Shown here one piece after another: positions 31,991-61,539 of a stretch of 64,000 nt of DNA. How positions within the stretch are numbered: position 1 is the first letter of the stretch; every line of letters begins with the position of its first letter. A model generated the notes under the pieces. It had not been told where the DNA came from. It searched no databases and saw nothing but the letters and a program-made list of their open reading frames with translations. Where the stretch lies: contig NZ_JAGPXN010000018.1 in the NCBI RefSeq assembly GCF_018070575.1, forward strand, positions 1-64,000, given 5' to 3'. The stretch comes from Micromonospora sp. C31 (GTDB taxonomy: Bacteria; Actinomycetota; Actinomycetes; Mycobacteriales; Micromonosporaceae). Made by a program: the position numbers and the translations under genes.

Positions 31991-32141
31991 CGACAGCTCT
32001 CCCCGGGTCGCGTGTGGACGAACGGGCCCGGTCCACGCCGGACGTGAATGTTAGTCTATGTCGATCATCGTTTCGGAGATACCGGCCCATGGCGAGCGCT
32101 ATGCGGCGGCCGGCCCGACGTGCAACTCCGGAGGGCGTCAG

Positions 32142-40161: not shown

Positions 40162-40207
40162 CCTGCTCCGATCTCCACCCTGGTCCGTGGCCGGCATCGT
40201 TGCCGGT

Positions 40208-41446: not shown

Positions 41447-41715
41447 CACCTCCGGTCGGACGGGTCGCATGCTGGTCACCGGCGGCGTCGCAGCCGTGCC
41501 AATCATGTGGCAGGCAAACGGCTTGCCCAACCCCTAGGACTCCGGACGGATGTCGTGAATCGTGAGGTCAAACCCCTATAACAGCGCTGTTCGCTGACTG
41601 CACGCTCAGTCACCTGGTACAGATCGAGGATCGGCACCCGCATCGGTGGGACGTGCTCGCACCCGGCGGTGTTCCGGGCTGCGGATCCGGATCGCCGACG
41701 GACAACGGAGGACCA
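41447..41715. promoter_or_regulatory. Divergent promoter region of exporter operon and assembly line
   Basis: The region holds a perfect 12-bp palindrome AACAGCGCTGTT (41580-41591) directly after TATAAC (41576-41581), a good -10 box for the plus strand. The octamer AACCCCTA occurs twice, at 41529-41536 and 41571-41578, 42 nt apart (four helical turns). Both look like operator elements controlling the NRPS genes. Confidence 0.5.
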
Positions 41716-44700: not shown

Positions 44701-45003
44701 CACGGGAAGCTCGACGTCGCGGCGCTGCCGCCCCCGGGCCAGGACGAGCCCGGCACCGCCGGCGCCGACGGCCCGCGCGACGAGCGCGAGCGGGTGCTGC
44801 TGGACATCTGGTGCGACGTGCTCGGACGCGAGGGCATCGGCATCCACGACGACTTCTTCGACCTCGGTGGCGACTCCCTCACGGCCACCCGGATCGTGGC
44901 GCTGGCCGGGGCGAAGCTGGGGGTGGACGTGGAGGTGGCGGTGATCTTCGACGCGCCGACGGTCGCGGAGCTGGCGGCCCGCCTCGTGCCCGGCCAGCCG
45001 TGA
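41716..45003 (+). CDS. NRPS, one module: C-A-PCP
   Basis: The protein has 1095 residues. GTG 41716 has GGAGGA 3-4 nt upstream. The C domain (about 50-480) begins LSFAQERLWFIERLE and has the active motif HHLVCDL (about 183; G replaced by L). The A domain (about 495-1000): A3 TLFTSGSTGQPKG, A4 CTFDVSLDELF, A5 MFNLYGPTEVS, A7 YRTGDLA, A8 GRGDGQLNLRGYRIEPGE, A10 TNHGKLDVAAL. Hand alignment to GrsA gives pocket residues D, V, D, T, V, G, L, V, S, which I cannot assign to an amino acid. The PCP (about 1020-1085) has FFDLGGDSLTATRI. It has no N-terminal docking region. The MbtH-like protein at 61536 may assist it. Confidence 0.93.
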   Translation: MGRQEHPVASDVTQRVSRLSSSARALLDERLRAGRSDPAPAAAIPRLDAEEAPLSFAQERLWFIERLEDDAVHHNDATLLILTGSLDRAALHRAIEEVVRRHDILRTAFRQLGERVVQVVTPPAPLTIDVVDLPGATARPDDPVLRAAVEQEMRVPLDLAAGQSIRAVLYRIAPDVHVLGVTVHHLVCDLWSFTIFCRELAATYAAFVAGAAAPDLPELPIQYADYAAWQRTAVGEERMAAHLRERVDELAGVPPLLTLPTRGPRPAVQQFVGASEWFRIGATDADRIRSLGQSQGATTYMILLAAFTVLLARHSGQRDIVVASPIATRDQDELEHLIGCFLNMIVVRADLSGEPTFAELVARVKAASLNAFRHRDVPFERLVAALHPERSRSHQPLAQVAFVLQNVPTSRLDLPRLRVDVHQMETGRSRMDLSMRITETADGLVGEIEYDTGLFTGETVRSLARQFELLLLEVAREPDTCVWRLPLLDDTQRHRILHGWNDTATDLGPEALVHRLVEAQARRTPDAVAVVEGSVRTTYRELDERANRLAHHLRDLGVGVEDPVAVCLPRSTAEVVAILAVLKAGGYHLPVNPRDPQARRDALLGQVRPAVAISAGDLCDEVWSPGRRIIDLDGESSLTATCPATDPAVPLHPDNLAYTLFTSGSTGQPKGVQVTHRGFTNRMLWAQRNFPLGPDDRVLRKAACTFDVSLDELFRALFNGAASVLMPETATFDPRRLAAVIARHGVTDADFAPTALREVLLTADAADLKSLRRIVSGVEELTPETQRLVFDRLDVTMFNLYGPTEVSVSCTAWPCDPADERPFVPIGRPMANVRVYVLDEAMQPVPPGVAGEVYVGGAGLARGYLDNCALTAERFLPDPYAATPGARVYRTGDLARFGPDGVLEFLGRGDGQLNLRGYRIEPGEVESALRRHPAVHEAAVVVRRDPPGGDARLVGYVVGDDLPGTADLRAHLRRRLPDYLVPAAFVSLPRLPLTNHGKLDVAALPPPGQDEPGTAGADGPRDERERVLLDIWCDVLGREGIGIHDDFFDLGGDSLTATRIVALAGAKLGVDVEVAVIFDAPTVAELAARLVPGQP

Positions 45004-45041
45004 CACCCGGTCCGACCCCTGTGCAGCGAGTGGAGAGCCTG

Positions 45042-48000
45042 ATGACCGAGCACACCGGCGCGTTGACCCACGAGGCGACGGACGTCGTCAACCTGGGCGC
45101 CGCCCTGTCCCACCAGGCGCGGGTCCAGCCCGGCAGCCCGGCCCTGCACCTGGTGGCCGAGGACGGCTCGACCGACACGGTGGACTACGCGACGCTCGAC
45201 GCCCGGGCCCGCCGCGTCGGCGCCGCCCTGGCCGCGCACTGCCGTCCCGGCGACCGGGTGCTGATGCTCGTCGGGGCGGGCGTCGACTTCCTCGCCGGTT
45301 TCTTCGGCTGCCTGTACGCCGGCACCGTGCCGGTTCCGTTGGCCGCCCGGCTCAACCGGGCCAGCGCCCCGGTGGTCGGGCGGATCCTCGACGACGCGCA
45401 GGCCACCGCGGTGCTGGCGGCCCGTGCGGTCACCGGGGCGGTCGACCTGACCACGCTCATGCCCGGTCGCCGCCTGCCGGTGCTGGAGATCGAGTCCCTC
45501 GACACCGCCCCCACCGGCTGGCAGCCGGCGGTGGCCGAGGGCGGGCTGGCGTTCCTGCAGTACACCTCGGGCACCACCAGCACCCCGAAGGGCGTGATGG
45601 TCAGCCACGCCAACCTGCTGGAGAACCTGCGGGCCATCCGCCGCTCGTTCGGCTTCGACGACGCGACGGTGATGGCCTCCTGGCTGCCCCCGCACCACGA
45701 CATGGGGCTGATCGGCACCCTGCTGACCCCCGTCTACCTCGGGGTGCCGACGGTGCTGATGGACCCGGCGACGTTCATCCGCACGCCGGTGCGGTGGTTG
45801 CAGGCGATCAGCCGGTACCGGGCCACCATCAGCGGCGGGCCCAACTTCGCCTACGACCTGTGCGTACGCAAGGTCACCCAGGCCGACCGCGCCGACCTCG
45901 ACCTCAGCTCCTGGCGGGTGGCGTTCAACGGCGCCGAGCCGGTACGCGCGGCGACCCTGCGCGCCTTCGCCGAGGCGTTCGCCCCGCACGGGTTCGACGA
46001 GCGCGCGTTCCTGCCCTGCTACGGCCTGGCCGAGGCGACACTGCTGGTCGCCGGGCGGGCCCGTCCGCGGCGCCCCGTCGTGACCACGGTGGCCGACCCG
46101 GAACCCCACCGCCCCGGCACGGAGGTGGTCGGCTGCGAGATCCTGCCCGAGGCGGAGGTCCGGATCGTCGATGCGAGCGGCCACGAGGTCCCCGACGGCT
46201 CCGCCGGCGAGATCTGGGTCCGCGGCGGCAGCGTCGTCGACGGGTACTGGAACCGGCCGGAGGAGTCCGCCCGCACGCTGCACGCCACCCTCGGCGGCGA
46301 CCCCGCCGACGGTCCCTACCTGCGCACCGGCGATCTCGGCTTCCAGCAGGACGGCCACCTGTACGTCCGCGGCCGGATCAAGGAGACGGTGGTCGTCCGC
46401 GGCCAGAACCACTACCCGGACGACATCGAGCAGACCGTCCGCGCCGCCTGCCCCCGCCTCGGCGGGCGGATCGCGGCGTTCGGCGTGGACGTCACCGACG
46501 ACGGCCACGGCGTCGGCGAGGCCGTGGTCCTGTGGTACGAGACCCGCTCCGAGAACGCGTCGGACGAGGCGTCGGCCATCGCCGAGGCGGCCCGCCGGGC
46601 CGTGGTGACGGTGCACGGCCTGGACCTGCACCGGGTGCTGGCCGTACCGCCCGGCACCATCCCCGTCACCACCAGCGGCAAGACCAGGCGCGGTGACTGC
46701 GCGCGGGCGTACGCCGCGGGCAGCGCGACGATCGTCGCGGACGACCCCCTGCGCCCCGCCGCGCGCCCGGCTCCGGCCGTCGACCAGACCCGGGCGCAGC
46801 GGCTGCGTGTCCTGGCCGGCGGACTGCTCGACGTCGACCCGGAGCGGATCGACGCGGACCGTTCCCTGCCGGAACTCGGGTTCGACTCGCTGCGGGCCGT
46901 GGAGCTGCAACACCTGATCGAGGGGGAGTGGGGCGTCCGCCCGGCCCTGACCGACCTGCTGGGCGACCGCACGGTGGCCGAACTCGCCGCCGCGCTGCCG
47001 TCCGCGCCCGCCCCGGCCGACCCGCCGGCCGCCCCGGGTGTCACCGACCGGCCCTACCCGCTGTCGTACGGCCAGCGCGCCATCTGGTTCCAGGGCGCCC
47101 TCGCCGACGACCCGGCCAACCTCAACCTGTGCCGCGCGGTGACCGTCGACGGCGACCTGGACACCGCCGCGTTGGCGCGCGCCGTGCGCGACCTCGGCGT
47201 GCGGCACCCGGCCCTGCTCACCCGGTACGACGACGCCGGCGCCGAGGCGACCCAGCGGGTGGCCGCCGACGTCGAGGTCACACTGGAGGTGCGCGACGCC
47301 GCCGACTGGCCGGCGGGCCGCCTCGACGAGGAGATCGGGGCGGAACTCGGGATCGGCTTCGACGGAGCACCCCTGCTGCGCGCGGTGCTGTTCCGGCACG
47401 CGGCCGACCGGCACACGTTGCTGCTGTGCACCCACCACAGCGTGATGGACGTCTGGTCGCTGGCGGTGCTGGTCGAGGACCTGGCGACCGGCTACGGCCG
47501 GCACGCCGCCGGGGACGACGCGGCACCGCCCGCACCCACCGCCCACCCGGCCGAGTTCGTCGCCTGGCAACGCTCGTTCCTGGACAGCCCGGCCGGCCGG
47601 GAGCTGACCGCGACGTGCCAGGCCCAGGTCGCCGACCTCGTGCCGCTGGAGCTGCCGACCGACCGGCCCCGCCCGTCGGTGCGCACGTTCCGGGGCGCCG
47701 CGTACGCCTTCCGGCTCGACGCCGACCTCTGCGCCGGCCTCGACGCGCTGGCCGCCTCGCAGGGGGTCAGCCGCACCGCCGTGCTGTTCGCCGGCTACGC
47801 GGCGGTGCTGTCGCGCTACGCCGGCCAGGCGGCGTTCCCCCTCGGGTTCGTGCACGCCGGTCGCGTCCGTGGCCGCTTCGCCGACCTGGTCAGCTACCTG
47901 GTCAACCCGCTGCCGGTGCCGGTGGACCTGTCCGCCGACCCGGAGTTCGGGGCCCTGGCGCGGGCGACGCACGACGCCGTACTGGCCGCCTCCGACCGGG

Positions 48001-51000
48001 CCGAGGTGCCGTTCGGGCGCATCGTCGAGGGGCTCGGGCGGGCCGCCGACGCCAGCCGTGGTGCGCTGCTCAGCGCGGCCTTCGCCTACCAGCACGGGCG
48101 CGGCACCGACCGGCTCGGGCTCGCGCCGATGGTGCTCAACCACGAGGGGGCGCTGGGGGACTGGGCCGGGCTGCGGGTGCGCAGCCGGCCCGTGCGGCAG
48201 CGGGCCACCTACTACGACCTCTCCCTCTATCTCGGCGAGCACGGCGGCGAGCTGCTGGGCACCTTCGACTACAGCACCGACCTGTTCGACGCCGAGACCG
48301 TCGGTGTGCTGGCCGAGGCGCTGACCGCGCTGCTGTCCGCGGCCGTCGCGGCGCCGACGACCCCGGTCGGGGCCCTGCCCCTGCTCGACGCCGAGCGGCT
48401 CCGGCAGGTGCTGGTGCAGTGGAACGACACCACGGCCGACTACGACACCGACCGGTGCGTGCCGCAGGTCGTCGCCGAGCAGGCCGGCCGGACCCCGGAC
48501 GCGCCGGCCGCGATCGACGACACCACCCGACTGACGTACGCCGAGCTCAACGCGGCGGCCAACCGGCTGGCGCACCGGCTGATCGGGCTGGGCGCCGGCC
48601 GGGACACCCGGGTCGGCCTGCTGGTGCCCCGCTCCACGGTCAGCCTCACCGCCGTGCTGGCGATCCTCAAGACCGGCGCCGCCTACGTGCCGCTCGACCC
48701 GTCGTACCCGGTGGAGCGGCTGCGGTTCATGCTCGCCGACTCCGGGGCCCGGCTGCTGGTCGCCGCCCCCGCGGCGGCCGTCGACCTGCCCGGCGTCGAG
48801 GTGGTCGACCCGGCCGACGCGTCGCTCGCCGCCGAGGACGACCGCGACCCGCCGTCGGCGGCCCACCCCGACGACGTGGCCTACGTCGTCTACACCTCCG
48901 GGTCCACCGGCACCCCGCAGGGCGTCCTCGGCCTGCACCGGGGCATCGTCAACCGGCAGCGGTGGATCATGGAGCGCTTCCCGATGGGGCCGGACGAGGT
49001 GGGCAGCCACAAGACCTCGCTGAGCTTCTTCGACTCCGGCGGCGAGATGTTCCTCCCGCTCTTCGCCGGCGCCCCGGTCGTCGTGGTGCCCGAGGACGTC
49101 GGACGCGACCCGGTCCGCCTGGTCGACCTGCTCGCCCGGCACCGGGTCACCCGCCTGGTGGCGGTGCCGTCGCTGCTGCGGGCGATCCTCGACGGCGTCG
49201 CCGACGCCGGGGAGCGCCTGTCGGCGCTGCGCTACTGCCACTCCAGCGGCGAGGCGCTCACCCCGGACCTGGCCGCGCGGTGGCTGGCGGCCCTGCCGGG
49301 CTGCGTCCTGGTCGACCTCTACGGCTCGTCGGAGATCTCCGCCGACGTGACCCTGGACGTGGTCACCGGAGCAGAGCGGGTCGGCAGCGTCGGGCGGCCC
49401 ATCGGCAACACCCGGATCTACGTCCTGGACGAGGCCATGCGGCCGGTCCCGCCCCGCTTCGCCGGGGAGGTCCACGTCGGCGGGGTCGGGCTGGCCCGCG
49501 GCTACCTGGACCAGCCGGCGCTGACCGCGGCGCGGTTCCTCCCCGACCCGTACGGCACCGGTGGGCGGCTGTTCCGCACCGGCGACCGGGGCCGGTTCAG
49601 CCACGACGGTCGGCTGGAGTTCCTGGGCCGGGCCGACCACCAGGTGAAGGTCCGCGGCTTCCGGATCGAGCTGGGCGAGATCGAGGCGACGCTGCGGGCC
49701 CACCCCGGGGTCGCCGCCGCCGTGGCCGCGCTCGCCGAGGCGCCGGGCGGCGGGGAACAGCGGATCGTCGCGGCGGTGGTGCCCCGGGAGCGCGGCGGGT
49801 CGCCGGTGCCGGCCGGGTCCGAACCGACCGGGGCGCCGGCCACCACCCGGGTGTCGGACTGGCGGCTGCTCTACGACCGGATGTACACCGACGCCGGCCC
49901 CGCCGAGGAGGCCCAGCAGGCGATCTGGACCAGCAGCTACACGGGTACGCCCTTCACCGACGTCGAGATGGGCGAGTGGATCGACCAGGCGGTCCGGCGG
50001 ATCCGGGAACTGCGTCCCCGCCGGCTGCTGGAACTCGGCTGCGGCACGGGGAACCTGACCCTGGCGCTGGCGCCGGAGTGCGAGGCGTACGTCGGCACCG
50101 ACTTCTCCGCCGCCGGCCTGAAGGTCCTCGAACAGCGGCTCGACGCCGAGGGGGTCGACCGGGACGCGGTCACGTTGCTGCTGCGCGAGGCCGACGACGT
50201 CACCGGCATCGAGGCGGGCAGCTTCGACACCGTGGTGCTGCACTCGGTGACCCAGTACTTCCCCGACCACGACTACCTGCGCAGGGTGCTGCGCGCGGCG
50301 GTCACCGCGGCCGCGCCCGGCGGGCGGATCTACCTCGGCGACGTGCGTGACCTGGACCTGCTTGAGGTGTTCCACGCCTCGGTGGAGCTGGGCGGCGACC
50401 CCGAACCGGGCCTGACCGTCGCCGAGCTGCGCCGCCGCGTCGCCGCCCGGGTGCTCGCCGACGACGAGCTGGTGCTGGCCCCCGACCTGTTCCTCACCGC
50501 CCCGCACTGGCTGCCCGGGGTGAGCGGGGCGGAGCTGCACCTCAAGCGGGGCCGGCAGGCCAACGAGCTGAGCGCGTTCCGCTACGACGTCGTCCTGCAC
50601 GTCGGCGCCGCCCCGGACCGCCCCGCCGCCGACCCGCTCGACCCGGTGCGGCTCGACTGGGCCGGCGAGGCCCTGGACGTCGCCCGGCTGCGCGGCCTGC
50701 TGCGCGGCAACCGCAACCGCCCGGTGGAGGTGCGCGGCGTGCCGAACGCTCGGCTGGTCACGGTCGCCGGCCCCGTACGCCGGCTGGCCGGGCTCGCCGA
50801 CGCGGACCCGGTGGCGCTCCCGGTGGGCGAGCTGCCGCCCGGGGTCGACCCGGAGGACTGCTGGAGCATCGGCGAGGCGCTGGGCCGGCGGACCTCGGTC
50901 GTGCCGTCGACCGCGCGCGACCCGTACACGATGGACCTGCGGTTCTGGCCGGCGGGCCGGCCCGACGACGCGGTCGGCTGGACCCCGCCGGAGACCCGAC

Positions 51001-51575
51001 GCGGTGAGTGGTCGGAGCTGGCCAACGACCCGCTGCGCGCCAGCGCCCGGCGGGACCTGCTGCACGACCTGCGCACCCACCTGCGGCAGCGGCTGCCGGA
51101 GTTCATGGTGCCGCTGCTGCACCTGGTCGACGAACTGCCCACCACGGCCACCGGCAAGGTGAGCCGCCGCGCCGTGGCGGCCGAGGCCACGGAGGCGCTG
51201 GCCCGGCTCGGCGCGGGCGCCACGGCCCGGCCGCTCACGGCGGGCGGCGGTGGGCTCCAGGCCCAGGTCACCGAGATCTGGCTGGACGTCCTCGGCGTCG
51301 GCGCCGTCGGGCTCGACGACAACTTCTTCGACGTCGGCGGCAACTCGCTGAGCCTGGTCCAGGTGCACATCCGCCTCCAGGAACTCCTCGGCCGGCAGTT
51401 CCCGCTGGTCGACCTGTACGAGCACACCACCGTGCGCAAGCTCGCCGAGCACCTCGGCGAGCCCGTACGTCCGGCGGCGGACCCGCCCGTCGACGCGGGT
51501 CCCGACCGCAACGAGCAGGTGGCGAACCGCCGTCGGCTGATGCGCCAGCGAATCCAGGAAGTGGGAAGTCGATGA
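45042..51575 (+). CDS. NRPS starter: FAAL-ACP-C-A(with methyltransferase)-PCP
   Basis: The protein has 2177 residues. ATG 45042 has GGAG 6 nt upstream; a GTG at 45000 overlapping the previous stop is possible. Domains: fatty acyl-AMP ligase (about 1-570; LQYTSGTTSTPKG, SWLPPHHDMGLIG), ACP (about 585-660; LGFDSLRAVEL), C (about 670-1115; CTHHSVMDVWS), A (from about 1140; A3 YVVYTSGSTGTPQG, A4 SFFDSGGEMF, A5 VDLYGSSEIS, A8 VKVRGFRIELGE), an inserted SAM methyltransferase (about 1600-1850; LELGCGTGNLTLAL), then A10 (TGKVSRRAV) and PCP (about 2070-2150; FFDVGGNSLSLVQ). The FAAL activates a free fatty acid and passes it to the ACP; the C domain acylates the first amino acid, which the MT would N-methylate. 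Pocket residues by eye are D, S, E, S, C, S, L, A, D; substrate not assigned. Confidence 0.93.
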   Translation: MTEHTGALTHEATDVVNLGAALSHQARVQPGSPALHLVAEDGSTDTVDYATLDARARRVGAALAAHCRPGDRVLMLVGAGVDFLAGFFGCLYAGTVPVPLAARLNRASAPVVGRILDDAQATAVLAARAVTGAVDLTTLMPGRRLPVLEIESLDTAPTGWQPAVAEGGLAFLQYTSGTTSTPKGVMVSHANLLENLRAIRRSFGFDDATVMASWLPPHHDMGLIGTLLTPVYLGVPTVLMDPATFIRTPVRWLQAISRYRATISGGPNFAYDLCVRKVTQADRADLDLSSWRVAFNGAEPVRAATLRAFAEAFAPHGFDERAFLPCYGLAEATLLVAGRARPRRPVVTTVADPEPHRPGTEVVGCEILPEAEVRIVDASGHEVPDGSAGEIWVRGGSVVDGYWNRPEESARTLHATLGGDPADGPYLRTGDLGFQQDGHLYVRGRIKETVVVRGQNHYPDDIEQTVRAACPRLGGRIAAFGVDVTDDGHGVGEAVVLWYETRSENASDEASAIAEAARRAVVTVHGLDLHRVLAVPPGTIPVTTSGKTRRGDCARAYAAGSATIVADDPLRPAARPAPAVDQTRAQRLRVLAGGLLDVDPERIDADRSLPELGFDSLRAVELQHLIEGEWGVRPALTDLLGDRTVAELAAALPSAPAPADPPAAPGVTDRPYPLSYGQRAIWFQGALADDPANLNLCRAVTVDGDLDTAALARAVRDLGVRHPALLTRYDDAGAEATQRVAADVEVTLEVRDAADWPAGRLDEEIGAELGIGFDGAPLLRAVLFRHAADRHTLLLCTHHSVMDVWSLAVLVEDLATGYGRHAAGDDAAPPAPTAHPAEFVAWQRSFLDSPAGRELTATCQAQVADLVPLELPTDRPRPSVRTFRGAAYAFRLDADLCAGLDALAASQGVSRTAVLFAGYAAVLSRYAGQAAFPLGFVHAGRVRGRFADLVSYLVNPLPVPVDLSADPEFGALARATHDAVLAASDRAEVPFGRIVEGLGRAADASRGALLSAAFAYQHGRGTDRLGLAPMVLNHEGALGDWAGLRVRSRPVRQRATYYDLSLYLGEHGGELLGTFDYSTDLFDAETVGVLAEALTALLSAAVAAPTTPVGALPLLDAERLRQVLVQWNDTTADYDTDRCVPQVVAEQAGRTPDAPAAIDDTTRLTYAELNAAANRLAHRLIGLGAGRDTRVGLLVPRSTVSLTAVLAILKTGAAYVPLDPSYPVERLRFMLADSGARLLVAAPAAAVDLPGVEVVDPADASLAAEDDRDPPSAAHPDDVAYVVYTSGSTGTPQGVLGLHRGIVNRQRWIMERFPMGPDEVGSHKTSLSFFDSGGEMFLPLFAGAPVVVVPEDVGRDPVRLVDLLARHRVTRLVAVPSLLRAILDGVADAGERLSALRYCHSSGEALTPDLAARWLAALPGCVLVDLYGSSEISADVTLDVVTGAERVGSVGRPIGNTRIYVLDEAMRPVPPRFAGEVHVGGVGLARGYLDQPALTAARFLPDPYGTGGRLFRTGDRGRFSHDGRLEFLGRADHQVKVRGFRIELGEIEATLRAHPGVAAAVAALAEAPGGGEQRIVAAVVPRERGGSPVPAGSEPTGAPATTRVSDWRLLYDRMYTDAGPAEEAQQAIWTSSYTGTPFTDVEMGEWIDQAVRRIRELRPRRLLELGCGTGNLTLALAPECEAYVGTDFSAAGLKVLEQRLDAEGVDRDAVTLLLREADDVTGIEAGSFDTVVLHSVTQYFPDHDYLRRVLRAAVTAAAPGGRIYLGDVRDLDLLEVFHASVELGGDPEPGLTVAELRRRVAARVLADDELVLAPDLFLTAPHWLPGVSGAELHLKRGRQANELSAFRYDVVLHVGAAPDRPAADPLDPVRLDWAGEALDVARLRGLLRGNRNRPVEVRGVPNARLVTVAGPVRRLAGLADADPVALPVGELPPGVDPEDCWSIGEALGRRTSVVPSTARDPYTMDLRFWPAGRPDDAVGWTPPETRRGEWSELANDPLRASARRDLLHDLRTHLRQRLPEFMVPLLHLVDELPTTATGKVSRRAVAAEATEALARLGAGATARPLTAGGGGLQAQVTEIWLDVLGVGAVGLDDNFFDVGGNSLSLVQVHIRLQELLGRQFPLVDLYEHTTVRKLAEHLGEPVRPAADPPVDAGPDRNEQVANRRRLMRQRIQEVGSR

Positions 51576-54016
51576 GCAGCGAGATGGACATCGCCGTCGT
51601 GGGGATGAGCGGACGGTTTCCGGGTGCGGCGAACGTCGCCGAGTTCTGGGAGCTGCTGCGCGACGGTGTCGACGCCGGCCGCCCGCTGACCGACGCCGAG
51701 CTGGACGCGGTCCCGGCCGCGGAACGCACCGACCCGGCGTACGTGCCGATGTGGTCGGGCATCGAGGGCGCCGACCGGTTCGACGCGCAGTTCTTCGGCT
51801 ACTCGCCGACGGACGCGACGCTGATCGACCCGCAGCACCGGATCCTGCTGGAATGCGCCTGGGAGTCGCTGGAGGACGCCGGCTACGACAGCCGCCGCTT
51901 CCCCGGCGACATCGCCGTGTACGCCGGGTGCGGCCTGAACCAGTACCTGCTCTACCACCTGCTGCCCCAGCAGGAGCTGGTCGACTCCGCCGGCCGGTTG
52001 GGCATGGCCGTCGCCAGCGACAAGGACAACCTGGCCACCCGGGTGTCGTACAAGCTCGACCTGACCGGCCCCAGCATGACGGTGCAGACCAACTGTTCCT
52101 CGGCCCTGGTGGGGCTGCACCACGCCATCAGCAGCCTGCTCGACTACCAGTGCGACATGGCGATCGTGGGCGCGGTCAGCGTCAAGAACCCGGTGCCGCG
52201 CGGCTACCGGCACGAGGCCGACGGCGTCAACTCGCCCGACGGCCGCTGCCGGGCGTTCGACGCCGAGGCCGCCGGCTACCACCTGGGCGACGGCGCGGGC
52301 GTGGTGGTGCTGCGCCGCCGGGAGGACGCCGAGGCCGCCGGTGACCGGATCTATGCCCTGGTCAAGGGCTCGGCGGTGAACAACGACGGCGCCGGCAAGG
52401 TCAGCTTCGTGGCGCCCGGCCGGTCGGGCCAGGTGCGGGTGATCCGCCGGGCGCTGCGGGTCGCCGACGTCGAGCCGGGTTCCATCCAGTACGTCGAGGC
52501 CAACGGCAGCGGCACGCTGATGGGCGACTCCATCGAGGTGTCCGCCCTGGAGGAGGCGTACGGCGCCGCCGCACCGGGGGCCGAGTGGGCCATCGGCTCG
52601 GTCAAGCCGAACGTCGGCAACCTCGACACCGCCGCCGGGGTGACCTCGCTGATCAAGGCGGTCCTCGCCGTGCACCACGGCGAGCTGCCGCCGTCGATCC
52701 ACTACCGCAAGCCCAACCCGCAGACCTCGCTCGATCGGGGGCCGTTCCGGGTCAACGACATGCTGCGGGACTGGCCGGAGGCGGCCGGGCCGCGCCGGGC
52801 GGCGGTCAGCTCGTTCGGCGTCGGCGGGACCAACGCGCACGTCATCCTCGAACAGGCGCCGCCGCCCGCGCCGCCGGGGTCGAACCCGTCGGCCGTGCTG
52901 CTCACCGTCTCGGCGGCCGGCGGCGAGGCGCTGGCCGCCGCCGCGGCCCGGCTCGCCGAGCACGTCGGGAGCCACCCCGGGCAGGCCCTCGCCGACGTCG
53001 CCTACACCAGCCAGGTCGGTCGTCGTGCGTTCCGCCACCGGGCCTTCGTGGTGGCCGCCGACGCCGGCGAGGCGGCCCGCGCGCTGTCCGCCGTCGGCGC
53101 GGCGCAGGCGTCGCCGGAGGCCGCCACGGTGGCGTACGCGTTCGGCGCCACCTGCCCCGACCTGGCGGCGCTGTGCGACGCCCTGCCCCGGCTGCGCGCG
53201 GAGGTCGACCGGGTGGCCGGTGAGCTGGACCTCGACCCGGGTGCCGCCGGGGCGGGCTCCGACGCGGCCACCGTCACCGGGCAGCTCGCGCTCGCCCGGC
53301 TGCTGGCCGCCTGCGGCGTGTCGCCGGTCGCCGTCCACGGCGAGGGAGCGGGCGCCGTGACGGCCGCCGTCGTCGACGGCCGCCTCACTCCCGCGGAGGC
53401 GGGCCGCGCGCTGCGCGCCGGCACCCGCCCCCCGGCGTCCGCCGAGGCGCCGGGCGAGGCCGACGTGACCCTGGTCGTCGGCCCGGGTGCGGCCCCGACG
53501 CTGGCCCTGACCGACGACGGCGGCAGCCTGCGGGGGCTGCTCGGCGCGCTGGGCGAGGCGTGGCGCCGGGGCGTCGAGGTGGACTGGACGGCCCTGCACG
53601 AGGGCGCCTCGCGGCGGCGCGTCGGCCTGCCGACGTACCCGTTCCAGCGCTCACGGCACTGGGTCGACCCGGTGGCCGTGGCGCCCGTGGACGGCACGGC
53701 GCCCGCCGCCGCGTCCGCCGACGCCCAGCCGGGCACCGGGACGGTCCTGGAGGAGGCGGTGGCCGCCGTGTGGCGACGCCGGCTCGGGGTGGACCGGATC
53801 GGGCTGCACGACTCGCTGCTGATGCTCGGCGCGGACTCGCTCAACGCCGCCCGGACGCTGCGGGACCTCGCCCAGGCCTTCCACGTCGAGCTGCAACTCG
53901 GCGTGTTCCTGGAGACCCCCACCGTCGCCGCGCTCGCCAGGGTGATCGACGACAAGCTGCGCGAGGCGCAGGAGATCCGGGCCGCGCTCGCCGCGGTCAC
54001 CGAAGAGGGAGCGTGA
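51572..54016 (+). CDS. PKS-like protein KS-(degenerate AT)-ACP with altered catalytic residues
   Basis: The protein has 814 residues, overlapping the NRPS stop (ATGA). The KS (about 1-430) starts DIAVVGMSGRFPGA and keeps the Cys (TNCSSALVG, about 174). However, the first catalytic His is Asn (VEANGSGT instead of VEAHGTGT, about 309), and the second is also Asn (SVKPNVGNLD instead of SNIGH, about 347). The AT-like region (about 450-700) is short: the nucleophile elbow GHSxGE reads VAVHGEGAGAV, without Ser, and the GQGxQ motif is missing. The ACP (about 735-800) is normal (LGADSLNAARTL). Decarboxylative chain extension with self-loaded malonate therefore looks impossible. A transacylase, scaffold or new role must be considered. 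Confidence 0.9.
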   Translation: MSSEMDIAVVGMSGRFPGAANVAEFWELLRDGVDAGRPLTDAELDAVPAAERTDPAYVPMWSGIEGADRFDAQFFGYSPTDATLIDPQHRILLECAWESLEDAGYDSRRFPGDIAVYAGCGLNQYLLYHLLPQQELVDSAGRLGMAVASDKDNLATRVSYKLDLTGPSMTVQTNCSSALVGLHHAISSLLDYQCDMAIVGAVSVKNPVPRGYRHEADGVNSPDGRCRAFDAEAAGYHLGDGAGVVVLRRREDAEAAGDRIYALVKGSAVNNDGAGKVSFVAPGRSGQVRVIRRALRVADVEPGSIQYVEANGSGTLMGDSIEVSALEEAYGAAAPGAEWAIGSVKPNVGNLDTAAGVTSLIKAVLAVHHGELPPSIHYRKPNPQTSLDRGPFRVNDMLRDWPEAAGPRRAAVSSFGVGGTNAHVILEQAPPPAPPGSNPSAVLLTVSAAGGEALAAAAARLAEHVGSHPGQALADVAYTSQVGRRAFRHRAFVVAADAGEAARALSAVGAAQASPEAATVAYAFGATCPDLAALCDALPRLRAEVDRVAGELDLDPGAAGAGSDAATVTGQLALARLLAACGVSPVAVHGEGAGAVTAAVVDGRLTPAEAGRALRAGTRPPASAEAPGEADVTLVVGPGAAPTLALTDDGGSLRGLLGALGEAWRRGVEVDWTALHEGASRRRVGLPTYPFQRSRHWVDPVAVAPVDGTAPAAASADAQPGTGTVLEEAVAAVWRRRLGVDRIGLHDSLLMLGADSLNAARTLRDLAQAFHVELQLGVFLETPTVAALARVIDDKLREAQEIRAALAAVTEEGA

Positions 54017-55044
54017 GGGCCGTGCCCGACGTCAGCTTCATCACCGTGGTGCCCCGCGTCCGGGACCTGACCGCCTACGCGGACACGGCGATGTCCGTCA
54101 TCCGCCGCAGCGACGCGGCGGACCTCGACGGGGTGCTCATCTTCACCGGCAGCGGGGCGGTGCTCGACCCCTGGATCCTGGCGACCGCGGCGGCGGCCGG
54201 CACCACCCGGCTCAGCCCGCTGGTCGCGGTGAACCCCGTCTACCAGCACCCGTTCACCGCGGCCCGGATGGTCGCCTCGCTCGGCCTGCTCTACCAGCGG
54301 CGCATCGACCTCAACCTGATCACCGGCACGGCCGTCAGCGACCTGGACGCGCTCGGCGACCGGCTGGAGCACGACGACCGGTACGCACGCCTCGCCGAGT
54401 ACGTCGAGATCATGATGGGGGTGCTGGGCAGCCGTCGACCGTTCAGCTTCGACGGCCGGTTCTACCAGGTGTCGCGGTTGCAGCTCACGCCCGGGCTGCC
54501 CGCGCACCTGCTGCCCCGGCTGTTCGTCGCGGGGCAGTCCCCGGCCGCCCGCGAGGTGGCCGACCGGGTGGGCGCCACCAGCATCCAGATGCTGACGGCG
54601 GGCCGGTCCGACGCCGACGGCGCGTCGGCCGGCGCGCTGAACTTCGGGCTGCTGACCCGGGCGACGGCGGCGGAGACCGAGCGGGTCGCCGCGGCCCGCT
54701 TCCCGGAGGACCCGGACGGCGCCAAGATCACCGCGATCACCATGGCCAACACCGACTCGGTCTGGAAGCAGCGGCTCTTCGCCGAGGCGGAGGCCGGCCA
54801 CGGCGCGGTAACCGTCGACCCGGCGTACCGGCTCGCGCCGTTCCGCTCCGGCCAGGCGGACGGGCCGTACCTGGTGGCCGACCACGCCGGTGCCGTCGAC
54901 CGGCTGCTGGCCCTGATCCGGGCCGGGGTACGCACCTTCGTGCTGGACACCCCCACCGACGACGAAGACTTCCACAACCTCGCACAGGTCGTCCGGACCG
55001 TCCGTGACCGACTGCGGGTCGACCCGACCGAGGGAGAACGATGA
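54013..55044 (+). CDS. Luciferase-like (LLM class) flavin monooxygenase
   Basis: The protein has 343 residues. GTG 54013 overlaps the PKS stop; a second GTG at 54022 is possible. TIM-barrel motifs are LSPLVAVNPVYQHPFTAARMVASL, IDLNLITGTAVSD, YVEIMMGVLG, FDGRFYQVSRL and LPRLFVAGQSPAAREVADRVG, as in FMN-dependent bacterial luciferase-family enzymes. Homologues fused as MOX domains in FAAL/PKS/aminotransferase synthetases (for example puwainaphycin-type) hydroxylate the alpha carbon of the acyl chain; here it is a separate protein next to the PKS-like gene. I infer hydroxylation of a carrier-bound acyl or aminoacyl intermediate. Confidence 0.87.
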   Translation: MRAVPDVSFITVVPRVRDLTAYADTAMSVIRRSDAADLDGVLIFTGSGAVLDPWILATAAAAGTTRLSPLVAVNPVYQHPFTAARMVASLGLLYQRRIDLNLITGTAVSDLDALGDRLEHDDRYARLAEYVEIMMGVLGSRRPFSFDGRFYQVSRLQLTPGLPAHLLPRLFVAGQSPAAREVADRVGATSIQMLTAGRSDADGASAGALNFGLLTRATAAETERVAAARFPEDPDGAKITAITMANTDSVWKQRLFAEAEAGHGAVTVDPAYRLAPFRSGQADGPYLVADHAGAVDRLLALIRAGVRTFVLDTPTDDEDFHNLAQVVRTVRDRLRVDPTEGER

Positions 55045-56636
55045 ACCAGCCTTTCGCCAGCCACGACCTTGTCCACGCCCGGCCCAACCTGGCGCTGGAA
55101 CCGCTGATCCACCGGTACTACGCCTGGCTCAACCTGGTGTCGCCGGTGCCGGCGGCGATGAACTTCACCAAGCTGCACGGACCGCTGCTGCGCTCGTTCC
55201 TCGACGCGCCGGCGCTGCACCGCCGCTCGGCCCGGGACCCGAAGCTGCGCGGCGGCATGTTCGTCGACCTCGAGGACGACCAGCTCGACGGCGTGACCGA
55301 ACTGGTGGACCGGCTCACCGACGGGCCGATGCCGGAACTGTCGGCGGCGATGGACGAACTGACGGTCAACCTGGAGAAGCTCGCCGACGGGTTCGACCTG
55401 ACGCCCCGCTACAGCGAGATCCCGCCGGCCCTGCGCGGCTACGTCGAGCTGGTCTACGACCTCAACGACCACGCCCGGATCCGGCTCGCGGAGCGGATGC
55501 TCTACCGGTCGCGGCACTTCGACGAGTCCGCCCACTCGGTGGACCTGTCGCTGGCCACCGGCGACGAGCGGCCCTTCGCGATGACCACCCCCCGGTTCCC
55601 CGGCAACGGGCACGTGCAGGCCACGATGCCGCTGCGGGACCCCCGCATCGACCTGCTCTTCTCCACCATGAACACGGCCCGTCCCTTCGGCGAGCTGCGG
55701 GAGGCGTTCGACGTCTCCGACGCCGACCTGGCCACCTTCAGCGGGTTGTTCTCGGCCGAGCCGGGCGGCAGCCCGGACCGCAACCTGGACGGCCCCGGGC
55801 TGCGGGTGCGCTACTTCGGGCACGCCTGCGTGGTGGTCCAGTCCGGCCCGGTCACCGTGATGACCGACCCGTTCCTGTCCGACGCCCTGGGCGACGGCGA
55901 CCGGTACGCCTACGCCGACCTGCCCGACGTCATCGACTACGTGCTGATCACGCACGCGCACCAGGACCACCTCGAACTGGCCACCCTGCTGAAGCTGCGG
56001 CACCGCATCGGCACGGTGGTCGTGCCGAAGACCGCCGCCGGGGCGTTGCAGGACCCGTCGCTGCGGCTGTGCCTGGAGGCGCTCGGCTTCCCCAACGTCG
56101 TGGACGTGGAGCCGGGCGAGGCGATCGAGCTGCCCGACGGCCAGATCGTGGTCTGCCCGTTCGTCGGCGAGCACTGCGACCTCGACATCGCCGCGAAGGT
56201 CACCTACTCGGTGCGTACCGGCGGCAAGAACCTCTACTTCGGCGCGGACAACCGCTGCGTCGACCCGGCGCTGTTCGGCCACATCCACGACATGATCGGC
56301 GACGTCGACATGGCGTTCCTCGGCATGGAGTGCGACGGCGCCCCGCTGTCGTGGATGTACGGCCCGCTCTTCTCCCGCCGGATCGAGCAGAAGATGAGCC
56401 GCAGCCGCAAGCTCAACGGCTCCGACGCCGTCGAGGCGATGGGCATCGTGCGGCGACTGCGGGCCAGGCAGGCGTACGTGTACGCGATGGGCCGCGAGCC
56501 CTGGCTGGTCTTCGTCATGGCCACCAACTACACCGACGAGTCGTACCAGCTCAAGCAGATGGCGGAGTTCTTCCAGCGCTGCGCCGACGTCGGGGTGCAG
56601 GCGCGGGAACTCTACGGACGGGCGGACCTGGTATGA
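55041..56636 (+). CDS. Metallo-beta-lactamase-fold protein with a large N-terminal helical domain
   Basis: The protein has 531 residues, overlapping its neighbours at both ends. Residues about 1-250 are an extra domain with no motif I recognise. The MBL fold begins at LRVRYFGHACVVVQSGPVTVMTDPF (about 255), with the metal motif LITHAHQDHLEL (about 303), a further His in CPFVGEHCDLDIAAK and an Asp/Asn in FGADNRCVDP. The pattern is that of the UlaG/RomA-like branch (lactonase, phosphodiesterase or N-acyl-PE phospholipase D type). Its tight coupling between the monooxygenase and the CocE-NRPS gene suggests it acts on the assembly-line intermediate or product; reaction unknown. Confidence 0.83.
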   Translation: MNQPFASHDLVHARPNLALEPLIHRYYAWLNLVSPVPAAMNFTKLHGPLLRSFLDAPALHRRSARDPKLRGGMFVDLEDDQLDGVTELVDRLTDGPMPELSAAMDELTVNLEKLADGFDLTPRYSEIPPALRGYVELVYDLNDHARIRLAERMLYRSRHFDESAHSVDLSLATGDERPFAMTTPRFPGNGHVQATMPLRDPRIDLLFSTMNTARPFGELREAFDVSDADLATFSGLFSAEPGGSPDRNLDGPGLRVRYFGHACVVVQSGPVTVMTDPFLSDALGDGDRYAYADLPDVIDYVLITHAHQDHLELATLLKLRHRIGTVVVPKTAAGALQDPSLRLCLEALGFPNVVDVEPGEAIELPDGQIVVCPFVGEHCDLDIAAKVTYSVRTGGKNLYFGADNRCVDPALFGHIHDMIGDVDMAFLGMECDGAPLSWMYGPLFSRRIEQKMSRSRKLNGSDAVEAMGIVRRLRARQAYVYAMGREPWLVFVMATNYTDESYQLKQMAEFFQRCADVGVQARELYGRADLV

Positions 56637-59600
56637 GCCGCACCTGGACCTGCCGGTCCGGGTACGTCGCCACGCGCGACGGCACCCGGCTGGCCACGTA
56701 CGTCTTCCGTCCGGTCGGCCAGCGCGACCCCGCGCCGGCCGTCTGGGCCCACGACCGCTACCACCAGGTGTCGCCGCGCCCGGGGCGGGACGACTTCCTG
56801 GCGGTGGTGCGGGCCGAGCTGGCCGACGTCGACCTCACCGACATCGACGACCTCGGGGTGGCCGAGGTGGCACCCGGGGAGGTGACGCTGCGGGCCTTCC
56901 CGATCGCGCAGCGCCTGCTGGCCCGGGGCTACGTCGTGGTGGTGGTGGACAGCCGGGGCAGCGGCGCGTCGTTCGGCACCAGCGACGGTCCGTTCGGCAC
57001 GGCCGAGGCGACCGACACGTACGACATCACCGAGTGGATCGCCGCCCAGCCCTGGTGCGACGGCCGGGTCGGCATGTTCGGCCGCTCCTACCTGGGGGTG
57101 TCGCAGTACCTGGCGGCGAGCACGGCCCCGCCGCACCTGGTGGCGATCTTCCCGCAGATGGCGCTGTTCGACCTGCACCGCTTCGCCTGGGACGGCGGGG
57201 TGTTCCGGGACGACTTCGCCCGCGCCTGGGGCGAGGACGTCCGCGAACTCGACCTGCGTGGCCCCGTCGCGCCCCTCGACGACGACCCGGACGGCCTCCT
57301 GCTGGCCGCCGCCCGCGAGCAGCACGTGGCCAACCGGGACGTCAGGACGATGTTCGCCGGCCTGCCCGCAGCCGAGTCGCGGCTGGCCGACACCGGCGAG
57401 GCGGCGTACCTCACCCGCAGCCCGTCGGCGCTGCTGACGGCGATCAACGCCTCCGGGGTCGCCGTCTACCACCTGGGCGGTTGGCACGACGTCTGGGCGC
57501 GCGACGCGACCGAGTGGGCCCGCCGGCTGACCGTGCCGCACCGGGTGGTCATCGGCCCCTGGCCGCACACCGGGGGTGTGCTGGGCGGCGCCGGCTACAA
57601 CCTGGCCGACGAGCACGTGCGCTGGTTCGACCACTGGCTGCGCGGCAGGGACACCGGGATCATGGACGGCCCGGCCGTGCGCTACCACCTGATGGGCGCC
57701 GACGAGTGGCGGACCGCCCGGTCCTGGCCGCCGGAGCCGGCGCCGACCGGCACCTGGCACCTCGGGCCGGCCGGCGAGCTGGGACCGGAACCCCGGGTCG
57801 GTGCGGACCGCCGGTACGAGGTGGACTACGCCACCACGTCCGGCAAGACCAGCCGGTGGGCCAGCGGCTACGGCTCGCCCTTCCAGCGGCCGGACATGAC
57901 CGACAACGACACCCGGGCGTTGTGCTGGACCTCGCCGCCGCTGACCGAGGCGGTCGAGCTGGTCGGTGCCCCGGTGCTGCGCCTGGCGGCCCGGGTCTCC
58001 GCCGGCCCGACGGACGTCTTCGCCTACCTCGAGTCGGTCGCCCCCGACGGCACCTCCCGGTACGTCACGGAGGGCTGCGGCCAGGCCGACGGGGACGCCC
58101 GGCTGGCCGTCGAGCTGCACCCGATCGCCTACCGGTTCGCGGCCGGCGACCGGATCCGGCTGGCGGTCACCGGTGCGGACACCGACAATGCGCTGACCGT
58201 GGTGCGCGACGTCGCGCCGGTGCTGACGGTGCGGCACGACGCCGGCGCCGCCCCGACGCTGGAGCTGCCCCGGGCGGTGCCCGCCGAACTGCGCGACGGC
58301 GACGAATGGGTCACGGCCCCGCTCTCGGTGGCGCAGCGGGCGATCTGGCTGGCCGAGCAGGCCGGCACGAGCGGGGCGGCCTACCACCTCGCGGCGGCGG
58401 TCGAGCTGACCGGCCCGGTGGACACCGCTGCGCTGCGCGCGGCGGTCGACGAGATCGTCCGGCGGCACGAGGCGCTGCGCACCACCATCGTCGAGGTCGA
58501 CGAGGCGCCGGTGCAGCGGATCCATCCGGCGGCGCCGCTGCAGATCGAGCGGCTGGACCTCACGGACGTGTCCGGGGACGGCTGGGCGAGCGACGAACGG
58601 GTGACGGGCCTGCGGGACCGCCGGTGGGACCTCGGCCGGGAGTGGCCGATCCGGGTCGCCACGGTGCGGCTGCCCGCCGGCCGGACGGCACTGCTGCTGG
58701 TGGTCCACCACGTCGCCGCCGACCCCACGGCGGCGGAGATCTTCTTCGCGGAACTCGCCCTGCTCTACCCCTCCTACGCGCAGGGGCAGCCGGTCCGCCT
58801 GCCGGACGTGCCGTGCCAGTACGCGGAGGTGGCCCGCCGGCAGCAGGCCGAACTCGCCGGGCCCGGCGCGGCCGACCAGCTCGCCCGGTGGCGGCGGTAC
58901 CTGGACGGGGCCCCGCAGGTGATCACCCTGCCGACGGACCGGCCCCGTCCGCCGATGCTGGACAACCGGGGCGGATCGGTCCGCTTCGCCATCGACGAGG
59001 ACCTCGCCGCCCGGCTGGTGGCGGCGGCCGCCGCCGCGCGGACCAGCCCGTTCACCCTGCTGACCGCCGCGTTCGCCCGCACCCTGAACGCGTACGGCGC
59101 GGGCGACGACCTGCTGATCGGCACGCCGAGCCTGCAACGCGACGACGAGTCGACCAGGGACCTGATCGGCTGCCTGGTCAACCTGCTGCCGCTGCGGATC
59201 CGCATCGACAGCGACGCCACCGTTGCCCAGTTCCTGCACGACGTACGCGGTGCCGTGCTGACCGCGTTGGAGCTGCGCCGGGTCCCCTTCGACACGCTTG
59301 TCGGCGAGCTGCGCCCACGCCGGGACCCGGCGGTCTCCGCGCTGGTGCAGGTGTTGGTGCGCTTCGGCCGGGCCGTGCCGGAGAAGTTCCGCCTCGGCGA
59401 GGTCGAGGCGCTGCGCCTGGAGCCGCCCGAGTGGACCTTGGCGAAGTACGACCTGATGCTGGCCGTGGACCAGGTCGGCGAGGACCGGATGGTGGGCAGC
59501 CTCGACTTCCGGCTCGCCCTGTTCGACCGGGCCACCGTCGGGCGGATCCGCGACTCGCTGCTGACCGTGCTCGACCAGCTCGTCTCCGACCAGGAGCGGC

Positions 59601-60226
59601 CGGTCGGGGAGTTGTCGGCCATGCCCCGGCGGGAGCTGCGGGCCGTGCTCGACGGGTGGAACCCGGCGCGGCTGCCGGACGCGCTCGTCGGGCAGGACGA
59701 CCTGCCGCAGGTGGCCCGCTGCTACGTCCTCGACGAGCACCGGCGGCCCGTGCCGGTCAACACCCCCGGGCGGCTGTGGGTCGGCGGCACCGGTGACGTC
59801 GACGATCCGTACGCCGGGACGCCGGGCGCACGGATGCGCGACACCGGGGCCATCGTGCGGTGGAGCACGGCGGGACGGCTGGAACTGGTGCCGCCCGCCA
59901 CCGCCCCCGGGACGCCGGCCGCCCCGCCGGACTCCGCCACCGCCGCGGCCCCGGCGCAGCCGGCCACCGCGGCGGGCCCGACGACCGACGACGGCCGCGC
60001 CGAGCTGCTCGACCAGCTCGGGCAGATCTGGGCCGCCCTGCTCAAGGTCGACGACGTCGCTCCCGGGGACGACTTCTTCGACCTGGGTGGCGACTCGCTC
60101 TTCGCGATCCGCCTGATCGGCCGGATCCGCAAGGCGTGCCAGGTCCGGCTCTCCCTGCAGGACGTGTTCGCGGCGCCGACGCTGGGCGAGCAGGTCGACC
60201 TGGTCCGCGAACGGCAGGCGTCGTGA
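56633..60226 (+). CDS. CocE/S15 hydrolase fused to NRPS C-(A remnant)-PCP
   Basis: The protein has 1197 residues, ATGA-coupled. Residues about 1-420 are a CocE/NonD (peptidase S15) alpha/beta hydrolase: VVVDSRGSGAS, nucleophile MFGRSYLGVSQ (Ser about 151), Asp in LGGWHDVW and His in GPWPHTGG. The jelly-roll domain typical of X-Pro dipeptidyl peptidases follows (about 430-545). Then a C domain (about 560-1000) with VVHHVAADPTA (HHxxxD kept). After it come only about 65 residues of an A domain (YVLDEHRRPVPVNTPGRLWVGG, then RDTGAIVRWS, equivalents of A6/A7); the A1-A5 core and A8-A10 are gone. The PCP (about 1120-1190) has FFDLGGDSLFAIRL. The PCP needs loading in trans. No signal peptide is present, so the hydrolase is cytoplasmic. 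Confidence 0.92.
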   Translation: MSRTWTCRSGYVATRDGTRLATYVFRPVGQRDPAPAVWAHDRYHQVSPRPGRDDFLAVVRAELADVDLTDIDDLGVAEVAPGEVTLRAFPIAQRLLARGYVVVVVDSRGSGASFGTSDGPFGTAEATDTYDITEWIAAQPWCDGRVGMFGRSYLGVSQYLAASTAPPHLVAIFPQMALFDLHRFAWDGGVFRDDFARAWGEDVRELDLRGPVAPLDDDPDGLLLAAAREQHVANRDVRTMFAGLPAAESRLADTGEAAYLTRSPSALLTAINASGVAVYHLGGWHDVWARDATEWARRLTVPHRVVIGPWPHTGGVLGGAGYNLADEHVRWFDHWLRGRDTGIMDGPAVRYHLMGADEWRTARSWPPEPAPTGTWHLGPAGELGPEPRVGADRRYEVDYATTSGKTSRWASGYGSPFQRPDMTDNDTRALCWTSPPLTEAVELVGAPVLRLAARVSAGPTDVFAYLESVAPDGTSRYVTEGCGQADGDARLAVELHPIAYRFAAGDRIRLAVTGADTDNALTVVRDVAPVLTVRHDAGAAPTLELPRAVPAELRDGDEWVTAPLSVAQRAIWLAEQAGTSGAAYHLAAAVELTGPVDTAALRAAVDEIVRRHEALRTTIVEVDEAPVQRIHPAAPLQIERLDLTDVSGDGWASDERVTGLRDRRWDLGREWPIRVATVRLPAGRTALLLVVHHVAADPTAAEIFFAELALLYPSYAQGQPVRLPDVPCQYAEVARRQQAELAGPGAADQLARWRRYLDGAPQVITLPTDRPRPPMLDNRGGSVRFAIDEDLAARLVAAAAAARTSPFTLLTAAFARTLNAYGAGDDLLIGTPSLQRDDESTRDLIGCLVNLLPLRIRIDSDATVAQFLHDVRGAVLTALELRRVPFDTLVGELRPRRDPAVSALVQVLVRFGRAVPEKFRLGEVEALRLEPPEWTLAKYDLMLAVDQVGEDRMVGSLDFRLALFDRATVGRIRDSLLTVLDQLVSDQERPVGELSAMPRRELRAVLDGWNPARLPDALVGQDDLPQVARCYVLDEHRRPVPVNTPGRLWVGGTGDVDDPYAGTPGARMRDTGAIVRWSTAGRLELVPPATAPGTPAAPPDSATAAAPAQPATAAGPTTDDGRAELLDQLGQIWAALLKVDDVAPGDDFFDLGGDSLFAIRLIGRIRKACQVRLSLQDVFAAPTLGEQVDLVRERQAS

Positions 60227-61539
60227 CCGGGGCGGTCTTCTATCCCTGGTCCGCGCAGGAGGAGATCGATCCGGTCCGCGTGGCCGGCGGCGCGGGCAGC
60301 TGGTTCTGGGACGAGCAGGGCAACCGGTGGCTTGACCTGCACGCCCAGATGGGCAACCTGCACCTGGGTCACCAGCACCCGGCGCTGGTGGCGGCGGTGA
60401 CCGAGCAGGCCGGACGGATGTGCACGATCGCGCCGTCGTTCGCGGTCGACATCCGCGACGAGGCGGCCCGGGCGATCGTCGAGGTGGCTCCGGGCGACCT
60501 GGAGACGGTCCTGTTCACCACCGGCGGCGCGGAGGCCGTGGAGCACGCGGTGCGGATGGCGCGGGTGGTCACCGGGCGGCCGAAGGTGCTCGCCGCCTAC
60601 CGGTCCTACCACGGCGCCACGGCGGGGGCGTTGGCGTTGACCGGTGATCCCCGCCGCTGGCCGGTGGACCGGGCCAGCGGCGGCGCCGTGCACTTCCTGG
60701 GCCCGTATCCGTACCGCAGCGAGTTCCACGCGGAGAACGCCGCGCAGGAGGGCGAGCGGGCGCTGGAGCACCTGCGCCGGCTCGTCGGGTACGAGGGGCC
60801 GGAGACGATCGCCGCGATCCTCGTCGAGCCGGTGGTCGGCAGCAACGGCGTGCTGGTGCCGCCGGACGGCTACCTGGCCGGGGTCCGGCGGCTCTGCGAC
60901 GAGCACGGCATCCTGCTGATCGCCGACGAGGTGATGACCGGCTTCGGCCGGTGCGGCCGCTGGTTCGCCGGTGACCTCTGGGACGTGGTGCCGGACCTGC
61001 TGACCTTCGCCAAGGGGGTCAACTCCGGCTACGTGCCGGTGGGTGGGGTGCTGCTGTCCCGCGCGGTGGCCGCCCACTTCGCGCACCGCCGCTACCCCGG
61101 CGGGCTCACCTACTCCGGGCACCCGCTGGCCTGCGCCTCCATCGTGGCGGCGCTGCGGGTGCTGCGGGAGGAGAACCTGGTCGACCGGGCGGCCGTACTC
61201 GGCCGGGACGTGGTGGGACCGGCGCTGGCCGAGCTGGCCGAGCGCCACCCGGTCGTGGGCGACGTCCGCGGCGTCGGGCTGGCCTGGGCCGTCGAGCTGG
61301 TCCGGGACCGGGCGACCCGCGAGCCGCTGGCGCCGTACGCGGCCCCGGGGGCGCTGGCGCCCGAGATGGCCGCCGTCCTGGCGGCGTGCAAGCGGCAGGG
61401 CGTCTGGCCGCTGGCGGCGGGCAACCGGCTGCACCTGTTCCCCCCGTTGACCATCACGGAAGATGAGCTGGGTGCCGGCATCGCCGGCATCGACCGGGCC
61501 CTGACCGAGGTGTCCGAGGTGCGAGGAGGAGAACGATGA
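60223..61539 (+). CDS. Class III aminotransferase
   Basis: The protein has 438 residues. GTG 60223 overlaps the upstream stop. Class III motifs: [81 protein letters not shown] (cofactor Asp), the Schiff-base Lys in [14 protein letters not shown] (about 267) and [13 protein letters not shown]. Class III aminotransferases act on omega- or beta-amino groups, and those in iturin/puwainaphycin-type synthetases convert a carrier-bound beta-keto to a beta-amino acyl group. Its position after the PKS-like, LLM and CocE genes fits such a role (inference), or it could make an amino-acid monomer. Confidence 0.92.

Follow-up and report, generated by a model that had tools for sequence, protein, structure and literature searches.

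The fusion gene and its domains

A single gene in a 64,000-nucleotide stretch of DNA from Micromonospora sp. C31 (positions 1 to 64,000 of contig NZ_JAGPXN010000018.1, hereafter the window) is the subject of this work. The gene runs from 56633 to 60226 on the plus strand, as do its domains, the genes described below from 41653 to 61539 and the adenylation domain at 33681–35258. It encodes 1197 amino acids in one uninterrupted frame, from ATG to TGA. Within this frame a hydrolase of the CocE type is followed by part of a non-ribosomal peptide synthetase (NRPS): a condensation (C) domain, a remnant of an adenylation (A) domain and a peptidyl carrier protein (PCP). An earlier, sequence-only reading had described a complete CocE enzyme with its jelly roll, joined in frame to a C domain, a leftover holding only A6 and A7, and a PCP. 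The reading frame, the Pfam and NCBIfam matches and our alignment all bear this out.

The hydrolase starts with a Peptidase_S15 catalytic domain at 56678–57571 (residues 16–313, E 1.1e-48, 166.7 bits against a cut-off of 23), followed by the PepX_C jelly roll at 57656–58189 (residues 342–519, E 5.4e-23, 82.5 bits against 22.5). The CocE_NonD model (NCBIfam TIGR00976) covers both, from residue 12 to 517, with an E-value of 2e-91 and 307.7 bits (cut-off 66.3). Pfam returned no match of the protein to the Thioesterase family (PF00975) up to E = 1, and no TubC_N docking domain. A signal-like N-terminus is absent.

Ser152, Asp286 and His312 align with the triad positions of cocaine esterase chains; both chains shown in the alignment carry Ala at the position equivalent to Ser152. 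Tyr43 aligns with the oxyanion Tyr of cocaine esterase in a separate, weak piece of 0.6 bits. We take the triad and oxyanion roles of these positions in cocaine esterase as given. All sequence features tested place the hydrolase in the CocE/NonD family, and it appears catalytically intact. The sequence-only reading had proposed a structural model of the C, A-remnant and PCP part. A predicted structure of the whole protein was of limited use: the mean pLDDT is 59 and the pTM 0.43, with low confidence for most of the CocE part and the A remnant, and better values for the C domain and PCP.

The NRPS part begins with the C domain at 58313–59641 (residues 561–1003, Pfam E 7.1e-72), with the motif HHVAADP at residue 692. 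Other C domains in the surroundings often lack Gly at the final position of HHxxxDG, so the Pro that ends this motif is no clear sign of inactivity. The PCP lies at 60014–60205 (Pfam PP-binding, residues 1128–1191, E 2e-15) and has the motif GGDSL from residue 1152. The module has a C domain and a PCP with their catalytic motifs, and no complete adenylation domain.

The A-domain remnant lies between them, at 59642–59896 (residues 1004–1088). Pfam found no AMP-binding match in the protein up to E = 1, and the NCBIfam A-domain model reaches only residues 1028–1054 (E = 0.002). In an alignment with three complete modules, the leftover consists of a few residues from the start of the domain plus some 58 residues around A6 and A7 (about 1028–1086), with around 15 residues lost inside A6. 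The stretches that we presume to hold motifs A1–A5 and A8–A10 are gone, and the remnant should therefore be unable to adenylate.

Conservation, rarity and docked relatives

The same fusion is found in 4 of 160 genomes of the genus, the window's own and three others. In each of those three, one tblastn piece spans residues 1–1197 (1–1196 in one of them) at 89–91% identity, on contigs of 4.8 to 7.3 Mb. All four species share the ATGA overlap between the fusion start and the upstream stop, and all four have kept the same A remnant. An in-frame fusion shared by four species is neither a chance event nor an assembly error, and we ruled out both. The sequence-only reading had named two separate genes in relatives as grounds against the fusion, and this did not come true; all four species found with this cluster have one gene, and the separate relatives, in other clusters, bear a TubC_N domain.

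Pairwise ratios of nonsynonymous to synonymous change (dN/dS) among the four fusions are 0.18–0.30 for the hydrolase, 0.16–0.30 for the C domain and 0.16–0.55 for the PCP. For residues 1004–1088 they are 0.26–0.50, and for two linkers 0.6–2.2; the linker from hydrolase to C domain (58190–58312) has 0.61–0.96. The hydrolase domain is under purifying selection. The A remnant looks more weakly constrained, as a structural linker might be. With a predicted intact active site, a module that lacks its own loader and three related species that keep the fusion, the hydrolase probably handles building blocks on the assembly line.

Beyond these four, no CocE-C fusion turned up among the 160 genomes of the genus, nor among 300 of the family, 394 of the class, 296 of the phylum and 200 of the order, nor among 295 and 187 genomes from the genus and order of genome G408, introduced below. 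All sets except the genus are samples; they overlap, used different queries with E-value limits from 1e-60 to 1e-140, and are not exhaustive. A contig scan gave 9 loci, where custom domain models found CocE in 4 and CocE plus a C domain in one frame in none. A 1051-residue frame in genome G463, judged from its translation only, is probably no further fusion: the CocE gene appears to start inside the frame, with another gene overlapping its front. Plasmid records gave 23 matches, all below 60% identity, and among the 15 matches listed there are CocE/NonD genes or no annotation.

No paper describing CocE/S15 as an NRPS domain or docked partner was found, in a search whose full-text coverage lacks most subscription papers. 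In the excerpt of PMC2636758, the sole mention of CocE is in a table of insertion sites. The architecture is thus as unusual as the sequence-only reading held: rare in the genus, not found again in the other sets, and in no paper that the search returned. That the fusion might be common and already characterised finds no support from either source.

A fifth genome of the genus, G035, has a separate relative. It is a free-standing hydrolase of 627 amino acids in a different polyketide synthase (PKS)/NRPS cluster, with an N-terminal TubC_N domain (PF18563, E 1.2e-16). Two more such hydrolases are found in G408, which belongs to a different family of this class, and both have TubC_N (E 2.3e-17 and 3.7e-6). 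These three copies in two genomes, all in PKS/NRPS clusters, are the nearest relatives of the fusion's hydrolase.

In a tree of 19 rows the four fusions group with support 100/100 and the three docked forms with 99/98; fused and docked forms join at 90/97. Ser152, Asp286, His312 and Tyr43 are invariant in all seven. Eight other CocE relatives stand apart from this group. All eight have signal- or lipoprotein-like N-termini, judged by eye, and none matches a TubC_N model built from the three docked enzymes. Wide flanks were available for three of them: at G872, NRPS genes lie about 7.5 kb away, and its close relatives G947 and G775 lack them in the stretch covered.

Since fused and docked forms group together, apart from the eight outside relatives, the tree indicates a CocE subfamily that is recruited to assembly lines, either by fusion or by docking. 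That this recruitment happened once is likely; it falls short of proof because the support of 90 lies under the star threshold of the tree program. The TubC_N domain of the docked relatives likewise points to work on the assembly line.

In G035, and for one of the G408 copies, the CocE gene overlaps by 4 bases with the gene of a PCP-C-A-PCP subunit. These subunits, which lie just upstream of the docked CocE and are its candidate docking partners, end in RERGEL (G035) and RELGEL (G408). In both cases the NRPS/PKS subunit before PCP-C-A-PCP ends in a C domain, with a thioesterase gene in between. Should the subunits work in the order of their genes, C would be followed by PCP across the subunit border, with no A domain between them.

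The other G408 copy is flanked by a free acyl carrier protein (ACP) and a homologue of amino acid:ACP ligase. The G035 relative of this ligase homologue matches 3mey with 123 bits, and the G035 and G408 proteins are 49% identical. An acyl-CoA dehydrogenase gene had been considered as a neighbour here and was dropped: the actual order is a 3-hydroxyacyl-CoA dehydrogenase-type gene, ACP, CocE and ligase homologue. This run of genes (L037 807–1055 and 1135–4316) looks like a unit for making an ACP-bound amino acid.

The surrounding gene cluster

Upstream of the fusion lie a C-A-PCP subunit (41653–45003), a subunit with fatty acyl-AMP ligase (FAAL), ACP, C, A with methyltransferase (MT) and PCP (45000–51575), a ketosynthase (KS)-ACP protein (51572–54016), a luciferase-like monooxygenase (54025–55044) and a CmlA-type diiron beta-hydroxylase (55041–56636). 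The last of these matches CmlA_N at 3.8e-64, 8a90 with 399 bits and CmlA with 310 bits, and it is its stop codon that overlaps the fusion start in the four species. CmlA-type hydroxylases work on carrier-bound amino acids.

Downstream, a class III aminotransferase gene (60223–61539) overlaps the end of the fusion. A relative in the G035 cluster is 61% identical to it, and none was seen in the G408 stretch. Further upstream lies a free-standing amino-acid adenylation domain (33681–35258), a candidate loader of the PCP that lacks an A domain. Its specificity code resembles Asp, presuming that our code table is right. On the opposite strand C-thioesterase (TE) and A-PCP-C-A-PCP proteins extend beyond the window.

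The KS-ACP protein has no match to an acyltransferase (AT) domain. Its HGTGT motif reads NGSGT and its second KS motif ends in Asn, so that both catalytic His positions read Asn, and both changes are present in all four species. Of 13 KS domains compared, 10 could be read at the first motif, with His in 9 and Asn only in the window's KS. The protein looks like a non-elongating KS. With a KS-ACP that has no AT and a fusion that has no A domain, two modules unable to load their own extender stand near each other.

Each of the three cluster types has full-length hits to a FAAL model built from the window's single FAAL, with one in G000 and two each in G035 and G408. Thioesterases of the usual family are present in all three as well, as C-TE in the window's cluster and as stand-alone TE plus PCP-TE in G035 and G408.

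The literature search gave nothing usable on a known product for the cluster. Several genes hint at sulfonate chemistry: one related to acylating sulfoacetaldehyde dehydrogenase (37452–38969, 444 bits, below the cut-off of 600), the monooxygenase at 54025–55044, which is alkanesulfonate-monooxygenase-like, the aminotransferase at 60223–61539, which is PRK06062-type, and a TauE-type exporter (contig C11, 72768–73529). A pyridoxal-phosphate enzyme at 38956–40197 is akin to GntC of the guanitoxin pathway and to capreomycidine synthase, below the cut-offs of both, and perhaps a modified arginine is produced at this locus. A C-TE protein at L010:6835–9120 (contig C11 61834–64119, minus strand) has no PCP between C and TE. 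A 482-residue protein at 32058–33506 has no Pfam or NCBIfam match and is 94% identical in G093.

Possible roles and known systems

Trimming, transfer, hydrolysis and removal of a FAAL-added lipid had all been put forward as actions of the hydrolase. These are indistinguishable by sequence. A deleted A domain beside CocE does fit loading or transfer better than the other proposed actions. The sequence-only interpretation as a whole is partly supported: the fusion is real, conserved, rare, and intact as far as sequence can tell.

Our tentative preference, held with rather less than even confidence, is that the CocE domain is an in-line serine acyl or aminoacyl transferase with hydrolase activity, acting on carrier-bound units on behalf of a PCP that has lost its A domain. 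An amino acid would first be activated and loaded onto a different carrier in the cluster, where it might be modified, with the CmlA-type beta-hydroxylase of the preceding gene as one possible enzyme. Ser152 would then take over the modified unit as an ester and pass it to the fusion's own PCP, for use by the C domain. We infer that the substrate is carrier-bound and that transfer prevails over hydrolysis; the identity of the amino acid and of the donor carrier are likewise deduced.

This transferase role is proposed because in both lineages the hydrolase is either part of a polypeptide whose PCP lacks an A domain or, judging from gene order and TubC_N, adjacent to one. Other grounds are the coupling to the hydroxylase gene in the window and the resemblance to CysB and LgnA, discussed below. 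The invariant triad and Tyr43, the purifying selection on the hydrolase and the G408 copy beside an ACP and a ligase homologue also speak for it. A more specific version, possible but somewhat more doubtful, has CocE as a built-in loading domain that replaces the deleted A domain and fetches tailored aminoacyl or acyl groups from a different carrier for its own PCP. The subfamily, docked elsewhere via TubC, would then be a portable transfer part.

Several observations weigh against such a role. The free-standing A domain of the cluster could charge the fusion's PCP directly, in the way that CmnI is charged by CmnA-A1. Of 38 C-domain hits examined in other parts of this genome (in stretches of 6 contigs around search hits), 5 are followed directly by a PCP with no CocE in those proteins, which also weakens the idea that A-less modules by themselves mark the presence of CocE. 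The search of the G035 and G408 regions gave no CmlA-type relative, and the P450s in these docked clusters best match BioI, CYP164A2 and CalO2 rather than a known NRPS beta-hydroxylase. The docking partner of the TubC_N hydrolases is deduced from gene order, and the structure model is too poor to judge the CocE pocket.

It is also conceivable, if on balance unlikely, that CocE is an on-line thioesterase, which hydrolyses or cyclises carrier-bound chains, edits stalls at the junction of KS-ACP and A-less module, or releases the product. The serine triad is that of a hydrolase family, the neighbouring KS-ACP looks non-elongating, so that stalling could happen there, and the docked enzyme in G035 and one copy in G408 sit after the end of an NRPS subunit, the usual place of a thioesterase. 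However, each cluster already has thioesterase domains of the usual family, and the fusion to an A-less module would go unexplained.

Less likely again is deprotection, with CocE as an amidase or aminopeptidase that strips an N-acyl or N-aminoacyl group, such as the FAAL fatty acid, from the tethered chain in a step like that of prodrugs or protecting groups. The S15 family includes peptidases, and the FAAL hits occur in all three cluster types. VinJ of the vicenistatin pathway reportedly strips a protecting aminoacyl group in the cytoplasm, although a literature search for VinJ found nothing. Prodrug hydrolases usually act after export, whereas the fusion hydrolase sits in an internal module. 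Deprotection also leaves the loss of the A domain unexplained, as it does the G408 copy beside an ACP and the ligase homologue.

Neighbouring genes can fuse by chance through a lost stop, but that the hydrolase is a mere passenger, inactive or with no part in the pathway, is very improbable given an invariant triad, a hydrolase dN/dS of 0.18–0.30 while linkers drift, and sister enzymes with docking domains in other NRPS clusters.

If the transferase role holds, a hydrolase, in cis or docked, can take the place of adenylation in a module by supplying its residue ready-made. Engineers would gain a useful part from this, and modules without an A domain would become easier to interpret.

Hydrolases on assembly lines are already known; the CocE family and the fusion architecture were not found described among them. 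With cocaine esterase (PDB 1ju3), of the CocE/NonD hydrolases, the window enzyme shares the S15 fold domains, PepX_C, and the positions of the triad and the oxyanion Tyr. It differs in being fused to C, A remnant and PCP and, unlike the eight outside relatives, in having no signal-like N-terminus. The sister hydrolases resemble other docked assembly-line proteins in carrying TubC_N; the window protein is fused instead.

Alpha/beta-hydrolases that act on carrier-bound units include thioesterases, type II thioesterases and SyrC-type shuttles, and in SyrC, CmaE and CysB the nucleophile is Cys. The module itself has a parallel in CmnI, which has C and T domains with no A domain and is loaded by the A domain of another module, CmnA-A1 (PMC12400406, in excerpt). 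It shares C and T without A with the fusion, and that excerpt mentions no hydrolase. LgnA, a type II thioesterase, shuttles Thr from one T domain to another and is capable of hydrolysis as well, according to the excerpt of PMC8748450; it is a stand-alone member of the thioesterase family, whereas the window enzyme is S15/CocE and fused. Similar in logic is cystobactamid CysB, which according to the excerpt of PMC7966384 transfers a tailored aminoacyl residue from CysH to module 3 of CysK, where the A domain is inactive; SyrC and CmaE are its relatives. What is shared is a tailored aminoacyl group going to a module with no working A domain, where transfer in the window is our proposal. SyrC, CmaE and CysB stand alone; the window enzyme is fused, has a Ser nucleophile, and is classed as CocE/S15.

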